Assembly (NCBI GenBank): GCA_944326615.1
Contig: CALVEO010000020.1
Coordinates: 1 to 32,605, forward strand
Direction of reading: 5' to 3'
Length of the DNA stretch: 32,605 nucleotides
From: Candidatus Gastranaerophilales bacterium
GTDB taxonomy: Bacteria; Cyanobacteriota; Vampirovibrionia; Gastranaerophilales; Gastranaerophilaceae
The notes below the pieces were generated by a model that saw nothing but the letters and a program-made list of their open reading frames with translations, made no database searches and had not been told where the DNA came from. Positions 5,233 through 32,605 of this stretch are shown in pieces. Position 1 is the stretch's first letter. Each line of letters begins with the position of its first letter. The position numbers were made by a program, and so were the translations under genes.

Positions 5233-6494
5233 ATGAAAAGAATTGAGCTGAGAATCGCCCCCCCCCCGAAAAGTCAGGTATAGCAAGGGATTGCGATTTT
5301 GGACTATTTAAAAAGATACTAACATACTGCAGCTCCAGGGCAGTAAGACTTTATTTGGAAGGTAAGCTATTTGGCCGACGGAGGAACGGAGGTCAGGTGG
5401 CCAAGCTATTATCGGTGCTATGCACAAAAATAACTTCTGTAACCAGCCTGCCTTCCTGCCATCAGAATTTCTGTTCTTCTGATTGTTACCCACCCAAGCC
5501 CTCCCTGATCAGGGAGGGAGGATGTTCTCGTAAATCCGATCTACAAGCTAATAACTGTCATTGCGAGCGACAGAATGGAGCGTCGCAATCTCATAATTTA
5601 TGTAATATTAATGAGATTACTACGTCGAATGCTTCGCATTCTCCTCGTAATGACATAGAAAGTTTATGCAGAACTCAGATGGCGGGTGCAGCGGCAACGC
5701 TGCCGCAAAGGGGAGAAGGAATAAGTAAAAAGCTCCTGAAACACAGAGGTCAATCTGACGTTCGTAAGATCCTGAAACAAGTTCAGGATGACAGAAATAT
5801 TTCCCTGAAACCGACTGATTCACTTATTAACCTATTCTCTTATTCACCTCGTAAACGCTGCGCGTTTACGTTGGCAGAGGTCTTGATTACCTTAGGAATT
5901 ATCGGCGTGGTGGCTGCGATGACTATGCCGGTACTTATTGCAAACCATCAAAAAAAACAGGTAGGAGTAAAATTAGCAAAATTTTATTCTGTAATGAATC
6001 AGGCATTAATCCGTTGGGAAAATGAGAACGGAATAATCACAGAAGATATTAAATTCAGTGATCGAACTTCTGATACACTAGCTGCTTGGTATGATGAAGC
6101 TATTGGTAAATATGTACAAACAGTAAAAAAAGAACAAGACAGGCAATATTTAAAAGTCGCATTTAATGACGGTTCAGGATTTGTTGCATATATTCAAAGC
6201 TCTCTGGCTGGTATTTACTTCTTTTACTGCACTGAATATAAATACTGCAAAGAAGAATCTTTTGATGGTAAACGAACTTTTGTATTCTCACTACATAAAG
6301 GCAGATTAGAACCATACGGCAGCCAATATAATTATAGCAGAGAGCAAGTCCTAGAAGCTTGCAAATATGGAAACACAGATGATCCTGAAATAAGCTCTAA
6401 AGGCAGGCGCCATTTTTGCGCCAGACTCATACAAATGGACGGATGGGAAATAAAAGATGATTATCCCTGGAATCAAATTATACTTGAAAATTAA
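5233..6494 (+). CDS. Pilin-like (prepilin N-terminal domain) protein, probably phase-variable, OFF as assembled
   Basis: The ATG at 5233, behind AGGAGG, runs into a ten-C tract (5258-5267) and stops at TAG 5281-5283 (product MKRIELRIAPPPKSQV). The pilin frame is open without a stop from the tract to TAA 6492-6494; one added C (or two removed) would join them into 420 residues. The pilin part starts at about 5865 with RKRCA then FTLAEVLITLGIIGVV, the prepilin cleavage and hydrophobic helix of type IV pilins or type II secretion pseudopilins, with about 209 residues after the predicted cleavage. The 211-codon leader is very long for a prepilin and consists of repeat-derived sequence (for example ILKQVQDD from a palindromic repeat). 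Internal starts such as TTG 5355 or ATG 5679 are possible but lack a Shine-Dalgarno. Substrate and pilus type are unknown. Confidence 0.75.
5258..5267 (+). repeat. Homopolymeric C10 tract after the pilin start codon
   Basis: Ten consecutive C, beginning 25 nt after the first base of the ATG at 5233. Such runs are extremely unlikely by chance in DNA this AT-rich, and the window has only one other of this length, at the second pilin locus. It is a plausible slipped-strand mispairing site. Confidence 0.9.
5340..5850 (+). repeat. Mosaic of dispersed repeats inside the pilin leader frame
   Basis: Pieces of several repeat families seen in the intergenic regions are joined here. They are the GGAAGGTAAGC / GCTATTTGGC element (5358-5405, compare 19276-19297), a perfect palindrome CCCTCCCTGATCAGGGAGGG (about 5500-5519), TCATTGCGAG...CGTCGCAATCTC (5558-5592), ATGGCGGGTGCAGCGGC (5679-5695) and CCTGAAACAAGTTCAGG (5771-5787). 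A palindrome, CGTAAACGC TGC GCGTTTACG, ends the mosaic right at the prepilin cleavage site (about 5850-5870). The pilin frame has no stop across the whole region. Confidence 0.7.
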
Positions 6495-7921: not shown

Positions 7922-9012
7922 TTATTTACATTGCCTTTTGCCTGTCCAGCTCAGATCATCACAATGAAGATAATCCATATTTTCATTATACAAAACCCAC
8001 GCAGTGCAATTATAACCAGTACCGGCGGTACTGCATCCGGTAGAACTCAAAGGTTTATCGGTATTATTATAACCGTATGGAAGAATTCTGTCTTTTTTAT
8101 ACAAAAATAAAAACAAATCTTTGCCGACTTTATTAGGAAACTTTTTGCCGTTTGTATCAACCCATATTTCACCGTACGCTCTGTCTTCGACTCCGTCAAA
8201 CACATCTTTCTGCGGTTCATAACCCTCTAATGCAAGCATTGTACCATCAGACAGCACTATTTTATAATATCTGCTTAAATTTTCAAAATCTCTTTCTGCT
8301 GCACCGTTTAATGCTTTATACTCTGCAGCCGGGAAACAGCCGTTTGATGTAAACCCGCAGTCTTTTGCAACTTTTAATTGCTTTACAAGATTAACAGGAG
8401 TGAAGCGTGTAACAGACTCTTCACTATCTCCATCATTTTCAGATTGATAAGCATCCCACATATCAGCCGTACCGTTTTCATTTACTGCCATAAGCATAGC
8501 CTGTGAAAGAACGCTATATGTCTTTTTTAACTGTGTAACAGTCACTTTTTCACGATGATTTTGAATTAAAACAGGCATCGTCATTGCGGCCACAACACCA
8601 ATAATTCCTAAGGTAATCAAAACTTCTGCCAACGTAAACGCGGCTCGACGAATGTCGTCAAAGTGGACTACGTGCGTAGCACCTTCTGCCAGAGTGAACG
8701 CTGCGCGTTTTAGTGAAGTGTGAAGAGTGAAACGTGAAGTGGATTTTACGATACGTCCTACTGCATTACTGCAATAGTATCCTAGCATCCGAATAAAAAA
8801 ATGCCATATAATGACATCATATTCAAAAAGAGAAAGAAATTGAATATTAAGACCTGTCATCACGCATATGGTGCGCGATCTTTTTAGGACAAATTCCAGA
8901 TTGCGCAATAAATGCGCAATGACATTACTGTAAACGACTTGATTCCCTGACTTCTTGCTCTCAACTAGCTGGGAGTGCCCCCCCCCCGATTAACATTGTG
9001 TAATAATTTCAT
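7922..9012 (-). CDS. Pilin-like (prepilin N-terminal domain) protein, probably phase-variable, OFF as assembled
   Basis: The ATG (9010-9012) follows AAAAGGAGGA by four bases and reads MKLLHNVNRGGGTPS before TAG (8965-8967), because ten G (coding strand) at 8978-8987 put it out of frame. The other frame is open from the tract to the stop at 7922, so one added G would give 363 residues. The pilin domain starts at 8638 with RRAA then FTLAEVLITLGIIGVV, with about 238 residues after cleavage. A second copy of AAFTLAE lies 20 residues earlier, 60 nt upstream in DNA. The leader of 125 codons is repeat-rich, including FTLHTSLK as in LeuRS. A TTG at 8908 or internal ATGs could serve as starts but have no clear Shine-Dalgarno. 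Role in a type IV pilus or type II secretion system is inferred from the N-terminus only. Confidence 0.75.
8711..8742 (-). repeat. GTGAAG-type short repeat in pilin leader
   Basis: The plus strand carries GTGAAG-like units including GTGAAGAGTGAA and GTGAAACG, both also found inside leuS (3040-3070). The minus-strand translation is FTLHTSLK here and FTLHSSLK in LeuRS, so both copies are read in the same frame. Confidence 0.6.
8978..8987 (-). repeat. Homopolymeric G10 tract (C10 on plus strand) after the pilin start codon
   Basis: Ten G on the coding strand, beginning 25 nt after the first base of the ATG at 9012. Length and distance from the ATG match the tract at the first pilin locus, and the sign of the frame error (+1 needed) is the same. 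Confidence 0.9.
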
Positions 9013-9054
9013 AAATCCTCCTTTTAATCTTTTTTTTAATTATATACCATTATA
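9013..9054 (-). promoter_or_regulatory. Promoter and Shine-Dalgarno of the second pilin locus
   Basis: On the minus strand an extended -10, TGTTATAAT (TATAAT at 9049-9054), is followed about 35 nt later by AAAAGGAGGA and the ATG at 9012. The promoter lies 19 nt after the stop of the upstream nucleotidyltransferase gene, and there is no clear terminator between them. Confidence 0.65.
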
Positions 9055-9072: not shown

Positions 9073-9729
9073 TTAAATATATCTGCGGGCCCAATTTATA
9101 AGTTTTTCATAATAAAAATCAGTATTTTCTGCAATATCTAAAGAGTCCCAGTTCAAATTAACAAGCAAAATTTCCTTTTCCTCACCATCCAAAACTCTCA
9201 AAAGTTCTTTCTTAGTACCTATAAATTCGGTATTCCTTGAATAATAAACTGCCTGCAATATAAAAAATGCACTTTTATAACCTTCATACAAAACATCAAT
9301 ATCCCTGTTTTCAAACAAGTAACCATGACAAACCCTATGATATAAGTTTGCCGAATTAATTTTTATAGAATCAAGAATATCACCGCGTTTTAATATAGGA
9401 ATAAAGTCAAAAAGATTACCCTGCAGCGAAACTGTGTCATTAGCAAGCTGAAAAAGATCGTATTTTGGCCAGTTATAAATTTCCTTTTCTCCGCATATAA
9501 AACCGCAGACCTTTTCATAAAAAGGCATAGAGTGCACTATATTTTTATAGGCAGTTAAATCTTCAAAAGTCAATTTATCCAAAATTATAACGATATCAAC
9601 ATCACTGTTTTCATCAGCCTCGCCGCGTCTATAGCTTCCCTGAAGCCCCACAAACTTTATACGCCTGTTAAACTGATCAAATAATTTTTTTGTAAATTCC
9701 TGAAGCCAAGATTCAATATTAAATTCCAT
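9073..9729 (-). CDS. Nucleotidyltransferase-fold protein with helical C-terminal domain
   Basis: The 218-residue product starts with the polymerase-beta-type nucleotidyltransferase core: GSYRRGE (31-37) followed by SDVDIVI, with two metal-ligand aspartates (D43, D45). The rest is largely helical, as in MNT/HEPN or aminoglycoside nucleotidyltransferase-like proteins (YHRVCHGYLFENRDIDVLYEGYK is split here as YHRVCHGYLF and DVLYEGYKSAFFILQA). Substrate is unknown; it could modify a small molecule, a protein or RNA. I chose the ATG at 9729 because a TTGATA-17-TATAAT promoter ends six bases before it, while the TTG at 9753 lies inside the promoter spacer. No separate HEPN toxin gene sits next to it, so a toxin-antitoxin role is not supported. 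Confidence 0.75.
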   Translation of the reverse strand: MEFNIESWLQEFTKKLFDQFNRRIKFVGLQGSYRRGEADENSDVDIVIILDKLTFEDLTAYKNIVHSMPFYEKVCGFICGEKEIYNWPKYDLFQLANDTVSLQGNLFDFIPILKRGDILDSIKINSANLYHRVCHGYLFENRDIDVLYEGYKSAFFILQAVYYSRNTEFIGTKKELLRVLDGEEKEILLVNLNWDSLDIAENTDFYYEKLINWARRYI

Positions 9730-9735
9730 AAAAAA

Positions 9736-9764
9736 ATTATAATAACTATTCAATAAAATATCAA
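9736..9764 (-). promoter_or_regulatory. Promoter for the nucleotidyltransferase gene, likely leaderless
   Basis: Minus strand: TTGATA, a 17-nt spacer and TATAAT (9736-9741). The ATG at 9729 starts six bases after the box, and no Shine-Dalgarno precedes it. Confidence 0.75.
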
Positions 9765-31885: not shown

Positions 31886-32587
31886 TTACTTACTGTACAA
31901 TACTGCTCTGGCAGCAACAGAGTTAGGCATGATTGTCTGATCATAGAAGATTACAGGATAAATATCTGTAGGACTCTTGATTTCACAATTGCCATCAGTT
32001 CCATCGCCTCCGTCGCATGCTACAACTTTGTTTGGAGCCTTGATACCGTTTACATCAATAAAACCTCTACAAGAAGTATCAATGGCTGTTATAGCTTTAG
32101 TACCATCAGCCCCTCTTGTACAATTTTCAATTTGATCCCCTTGGAAAGTGAACATAATACCATCGTTAAAAAATAATGTTACATTACCTTCAGCAATCTC
32201 AACGTTATCTGTTAAATTTGTGGTGCCTAGTTTATTTGTTACTCTTGCTTCATAATCAGCATCTTTGGCATCTTTAAATCCCCCTGTTTCAGCTCTAACA
32301 ACATTCATTCTGCTTGTCAACATTTTTTCCAATGTATAATCACTTTCGTCATCATCAGTACTTTTAGATAAATCAGCAAAATTCCATTCATCAAGTGCCA
32401 TATTTAATGTTACAGCCTGTGACAATGCTGATAAAGCTTTTTTGTAAGCGGCTTTATATTGTGCACCTTGAGTCGAATTCATCAATGTTGGCATTGTCAT
32501 TGCAGCTACAACACCGATAATACCTAATGTAATCAATACTTCCGCAAGCGTAAAACCGCCTCTCACTCTCATGTTTGATAATCTCAT
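31886..32587 (-). CDS. Pilin-like (prepilin N-terminal domain) protein, short leader
   Basis: The 233-residue product has an 11-residue basic leader, MRLSNMRVRGG, then FTLAEVLITLGIIGVV, a textbook prepilin with the conserved glycine before the cleavage site and glutamate at mature position 5. The remainder is a helix (YKKALSALSQAVTLNMAL) and a beta-rich C-terminal domain with cysteines (CTRG, CRGF, CDGG, CEIK) likely to pair. It is probably a pilus or type II secretion pseudopilin; which cannot be told. The start at 32587 has GGTGG eight bases upstream; ATG 32593 and GTG 32599 are in the same frame. It has no homopolymeric tract, unlike the other two pilin loci. Confidence 0.88.
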   Translation of the reverse strand: MRLSNMRVRGGFTLAEVLITLGIIGVVAAMTMPTLMNSTQGAQYKAAYKKALSALSQAVTLNMALDEWNFADLSKSTDDDESDYTLEKMLTSRMNVVRAETGGFKDAKDADYEARVTNKLGTTNLTDNVEIAEGNVTLFFNDGIMFTFQGDQIENCTRGADGTKAITAIDTSCRGFIDVNGIKAPNKVVACDGGDGTDGNCEIKSPTDIYPVIFYDQTIMPNSVAARAVLYSK

Positions 32588-32605
32588 AATCATTTCCACC
32601 TTTCT

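Follow-up and report, generated by a model that had tools for sequence, protein, structure and literature searches.

The window analysed in this work, i.e., the 32,605 nucleotides (nt) at positions 1–32,605 of contig CALVEO010000020.1 of a Candidatus Gastranaerophilales bacterium, harbors on its minus strand a type IV pilin-like gene (hereinafter locus B, the second pilin locus of the window; locus A, the first one, lies on the plus strand) whose start codon is kept out of the pilin reading frame by a run of ten G that is one base short. Judging from the sequence, locus B is likely to be one of roughly 50–70 phase-variable, default-OFF poly-G type IV pilin genes of this genome. This reading is based on the architecture of the loci, the statistics of their reading frames, the length differences between related loci, and the strand polarity of the runs, all of them observed directly; that the runs slip in live populations, that the ON form is expressed, that pili are assembled, and that surface variation results is inferred.

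The start region of locus B comprises a Shine-Dalgarno sequence, AAAAGGAGGA (9016–9025, minus strand), and an ATG (9012–9010) opening a short OFF frame of 15 codons, MKLLHNVNRGGGTPS (8965–9012, minus strand), which embeds the G10 tract (8978–8987, minus strand) and ends with the TAG at 8967–8965. The pilin frame has no stop from the tract down to the TAA at 7924–7922, with a stop-to-stop frame of 355 amino acids, and one extra base in the tract leads to a reading frame of 363 codons. At locus A, the start codon, a C10 tract (5258–5267) and the OFF stop TAG (5281–5283) lie within positions 5233–5283 of the plus strand, and the mature pilin-like domain (5865–6494, plus strand) would belong to a frame of 420 codons from the ATG if the tract were one base longer. 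The tract begins 25 nt from the A of the ATG at both loci, and the offset is identical. The coordinates of locus B, its 363-codon frame, and the equal distance and offset at the first locus had all been proposed in a first-pass annotation of the window, and all of them were confirmed. Elsewhere in the genome, the distance from ATG to tract is 21–38 nt, so that the 25 nt shared by the two loci represents no general rule. Which frame is joined to the start codon depends on the run length, the three frames corresponding to 9, 10 and 11 bases. The chance expectation of eight-base G/C runs is 0.09 per window, and all six overlapping matches retrieved fall in the two tracts.

The mature type IV pilin-like domain of locus B (7922–8638, minus strand) extends over 238 amino acids, from FTLAEVLITLG to the stop, and was assigned on the basis of PF07963, an alignment, and a structure model. 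The PF07963 match, for the N-terminal methylation motif of type IV prepilins, is above the cut-off and stands in a leader context; moreover, E5 is invariant in 17 sequences, i.e., the locus B pilin aligned with 16 relatives, which occur in metagenome-assembled genomes (MAGs) named Candidatus Gastranaerophilales and Candidatus Scatousia. In the aligned pilins the C-terminal motif TAWVLYNENMDYLHC (7922–8000, minus strand, in locus B) is near-invariant. The predicted structure combines a long N-terminal helix with a beta domain, and its best matches among solved structures are type IV pilins, but weak ones (Z of at most 4.6); a Foldseek search with the model gave no significant match. Furthermore, one prepilin peptidase gene (PF06750 above the cut-off) was found in each of three genomes (G000, G007 and G026).

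The same device is spread over the genome and over the genus. The genome of the window, a Gastranaerophilales MAG of 1.96 Mb that is 98% complete, contains 119 N-methyl pilin matches; overlapping G9 matches number 148, corresponding to about 74 G/C runs of at least nine bases, mostly of exactly ten and nearly all inside pilin leaders. The regions surveyed were those surrounding pilins, tracts and two points at which the skew switches. An upstream G/C run was detected in 47 of the 107 distinct pilins read in this genome, with an open frame from tract to pilin in 44 of the 47; among the 60 pilins without a visible tract, some are truncated by contig ends before a tract could show, and many pilins lacking a tract have short leaders. 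The first-pass annotation had depicted locus B as a second, independent pilin locus switched OFF by one base of a homopolymer: the OFF state by one base fits, and it does so family-wide, the device being present in nearly half of the readable pilins rather than at a second locus only. G/C runs of this kind are common in the same genus and present in both of the other genera of the family searched; in most of the order's remaining families they are rare.

Pooling over the genus, a ten-base run that leaves the ATG frame short by one base was found at 158 of 177 loci and at 20 of 23 further ones, and only 7 of the 200 pooled loci are in frame. The distances from ATG to tract and from tract to pilin cover all residues modulo 3, in the G class and the C class alike, yet they compensate each other, so that every combination of residues yields the same offset, which suggests that the frame is under selection. 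Since the 174 tract pilins long enough for comparison form 118 clusters at an identity threshold of 50%, distances of all residues with one offset cannot be explained by the inheritance of a single segment. In addition, over the 146 loci of the genus that could be compared, the ATG frame at length ten meets its first stop at a median of 7 nt after the tract; for the third frame the median is 25 nt. The early stop, together with the coordinated frame, argues that the OFF state at ten has been selected.

The choice between G10 and C10 follows the DNA strand. In this genus the G-run stays on one strand over long distances, whatever the orientation of the genes: the strand changes between neighboring tracts in 2 of 73 pairs in G007, 1 of 96 in G026, 0 of 44 in G001, and 4 of 47 in G025. 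Because bulk GC skew proved too noisy, both for 3-kb loci and around one switch point, the skew at third codon positions (GC3 skew) was used instead; both strand changes of G007 match a change of its sign, at about C1:310 kb and C2:600 kb, visible in genes of both orientations. The G-run thus lies on the G-rich strand, which we take to be the leading strand of replication, the polarity flipping at origin and terminus. Genes coded on this strand have G10, encoding glycine, and those on the opposite strand C10, encoding proline. The glycine of locus B against the proline of locus A had previously been taken as a sign of separate origin; it is not just that, the orientation of the gene relative to replication being what decides. 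As a marker of the origin, dnaA was rejected, because in the congener G026 it lies (C1:105055–106413) within a region of constant strand rather than where the strand switches; the skew-inferred origin is accordingly not adjacent to dnaA. Base composition was also considered as a cause of the polarity and discarded: by a rough estimate, a GC3 skew of about 0.1 or less, as in G000 and G026, would give a several-fold excess, not a near-absence of exceptions. The GC3 skew is larger in G001 and G007, and composition could contribute more there.

Length differences were found between related loci. Loci L088 (C9) and L077 (C10) have their start and flanks in common and differ in tract length. Neither loci of length 9 nor those of length 11 are compensated: the former are OFF through the other frame, and the latter are in frame. 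In the sister genus G033, tracts are 8–14 bases long, copies with the same flanks being ON in some cases and OFF in others, and there are families with both 11 and 12; the tract is likewise present and variable (8–14) over the loci L215–L244 of G033 and L171–L184 of the sister genus G034. Strand polarity and the fixed length of ten seem to have arisen together in the genus of the window. The orthologue of locus B in a sister species (L137, 74% identical) has kept both G10 and the offset, and its leader is quite different and short, with only 33 nt from the start of the tract to the pilin.

On these grounds, the following mechanism can be proposed. Slippage during replication would change the length of the G/C run inside the leader. 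At ten bases, translation from the start codon would end after a few more codons (OFF); with one base more, it would proceed through the leader into the pilin, and the prepilin peptidase would process the product (ON). Ten would be the usual length, selection having set nearly every locus so that ten means OFF and one added base means ON. With ten as the OFF state at almost all loci, most cells would express few of their many pilins.

Several observations weigh against such a switch. All the genomes compared are metagenome consensuses, and about 90% of the loci of the genus have exactly ten bases, a constancy that a free random walk of the length would not give. The pilin tracts of G033 always have G on the coding strand, with no replication-strand rule. 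Besides, mutS1 is present in the genome of the window and in nearly all its relatives, and the loss of mismatch repair was rejected as a cause on this basis; slippage may, in turn, be slower than in repair-deficient species. An invariant length among relatives had been named in the first-pass annotation as the finding that would speak against the switch, and it holds for the roughly 90% of loci at ten, L137 included; it fails for the uncompensated nines and elevens and for the 8–14 range of the sister genus. The constancy is the weak point of the proposal: it would fit if slippage equilibrated at ten in every population, much as the runs of Campylobacter have their centre at 9–10 (PMC6321876), and otherwise it would point to recoding at the RNA level. 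According to this explanation, which we regard as rather unlikely, the G10/C10 run is a fixed slippery site at which the polymerase adds a base to a set fraction of the transcripts, or a set fraction of the ribosomes shifts by −1, giving a low and constant level of pilin; the constant ten with a single offset, the stop directly after the tract, and a frame that stays open through long leaders would all agree with it. On the other hand, the runs in the mRNA are both G and C, both common in the genus and set by the replication strand, not by the transcript, and this polarity, independent of gene orientation, favors replication slippage in the DNA over RNA-level recoding. Known natural slippage sites, moreover, are mostly A or T runs, and the commonest offset in G033 calls for −1, not +1. 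Folding at the two loci of the window is not unusual (z = −1.2 and +1.5), a stimulatory structure downstream being a requirement of the ribosomal kind only. It is similarly unlikely that the run is a decoding device rather than a switch across the whole set, 50 to more than 100 pilin genes per genome being expressed only via programmed slippage at a leading-strand ten-base run of constant length.

The two remaining explanations concern the assembly and the start codon. If the true length were eleven and the genes in frame, the consensus would undercall the run by one; G-runs are hard templates, the genomes are consensuses, and in Bifidobacterium breve Illumina reads failed past G-tracts and the reference length was not the majority length (PMC9187656). 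Such an artefact is nevertheless very unlikely, given that the same result was obtained across assemblers and projects, as judged by contig names (NODE, idba, k127/k141, MetaHIT CAG), that lengths of 11–14 were called at other loci, and that only the G10 frame shows the early stops. Alternatively, the upstream ATG and the tract might be an unrelated short open reading frame or a remnant, with the pilin starting at an internal downstream codon. Internal TTG and ATG codons do exist mechanically, and many tract-less pilins have short leaders; we consider this highly improbable, since over 200 loci the offset and the open frame after the tract are far from random, and since in G026 most tracts lie just 33–35 nt before the pilin, which is a prepilin leader of ordinary size.

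In the species of the window, many leaders are enlarged by dispersed repeats, up to about 900 nt, and open in the pilin frame. The expanded leader of locus B (8639–8977, minus strand) contains repeats of the GTCATTGCGCA...TGATGACA type, identified by sequence and repeat comparison, and a duplicated RAAFTLAE segment (8707–8683 and 8647–8623). This leader, that of locus A (5268–5864, plus strand), and those of many other tract loci are mosaics of repeats, some of which are palindromic, in one open frame of up to about 300 codons. One such stretch has about 70 matches in the genome, some of them not upstream of any pilin, and the repeats are reminiscent of those inserting in frame into Rickettsia genes.

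Many tract loci lacking the standard pilin pattern also encode N-methyl proteins. Some of these are very large and share the G10 leader, either of the YTLAEIIVVMLII type with CWDGS repeats or of the FTLAEMMVVMLIM type with NTAIG repeats (L192, L202, L209, L284, L287, L289, L254, L270 and L276), which suggests that the switch is not confined to small pilins. In G026, a few C10 tracts (L294, L290 and L189) occur in or near non-pilin frames, such as those of a multi-pass membrane protein and of a possible sensor.

Upstream of locus B, a candidate extended −10 promoter element was recognized by eye, TATAAT (9049–9054, minus strand) with TG one base upstream (TGTTATAAT); the promoter scan did not list it, no −35 hexamer fitting. 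Directly upstream, on the same strand, a nucleotidyltransferase weakly similar to the MntA antitoxin is encoded (9073–9753). A third pilin gene of the window (31886–32599, minus strand) has an ordinary short leader and no tract. An Rfam search of the window retrieved no match.

If real, this system would represent a very large phase-variable repertoire of surface proteins of a single class, in an uncultured and non-photosynthetic relative of cyanobacteria from animal guts. With their uniform default-OFF frame and their leading-strand rule, hundreds of near-equivalent tracts would also lend themselves to a natural experiment on the influence of replication orientation on homopolymer slippage. 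Searches of the literature available for this work turned up no relevant paper on phase-variable pilins in Gastranaerophilales/Melainabacteria.

As for known systems, an early homopolymer run controls type IV pilus expression in Neisseria (pilC/pilE), with one or two loci, and pilin diversity there is generated by gene conversion instead of a large set of individually switched genes. In B. breve, the G-tract of the sortase-pilus loci bbr_0113/bbr_1889 slips in replication, as measured (PMC9187656); in this gut commensal, too, two frames are connected or disconnected by a G-run within the first pilin gene, whereas the pili are sortase-dependent, the loci are two per strain, and the productive event is mainly −1. 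The system described here involves type IV pilins at 50 to more than 100 loci, a productive event of +1, and a leading-strand polarity. The poly-G contingency loci of Campylobacter are also intragenic poly-G/C runs, centered on 9–10 bases, with translational ON/OFF switching and many loci per genome (5–81) (PMC6321876); the present system differs from them in that about 90% of the runs have length ten, 3–4% are ON, about one third are poly-C according to the replication strand, and one protein class is involved. The kind of switch is, therefore, known; what is new is the scale, the uniform OFF state, and the strand polarity.
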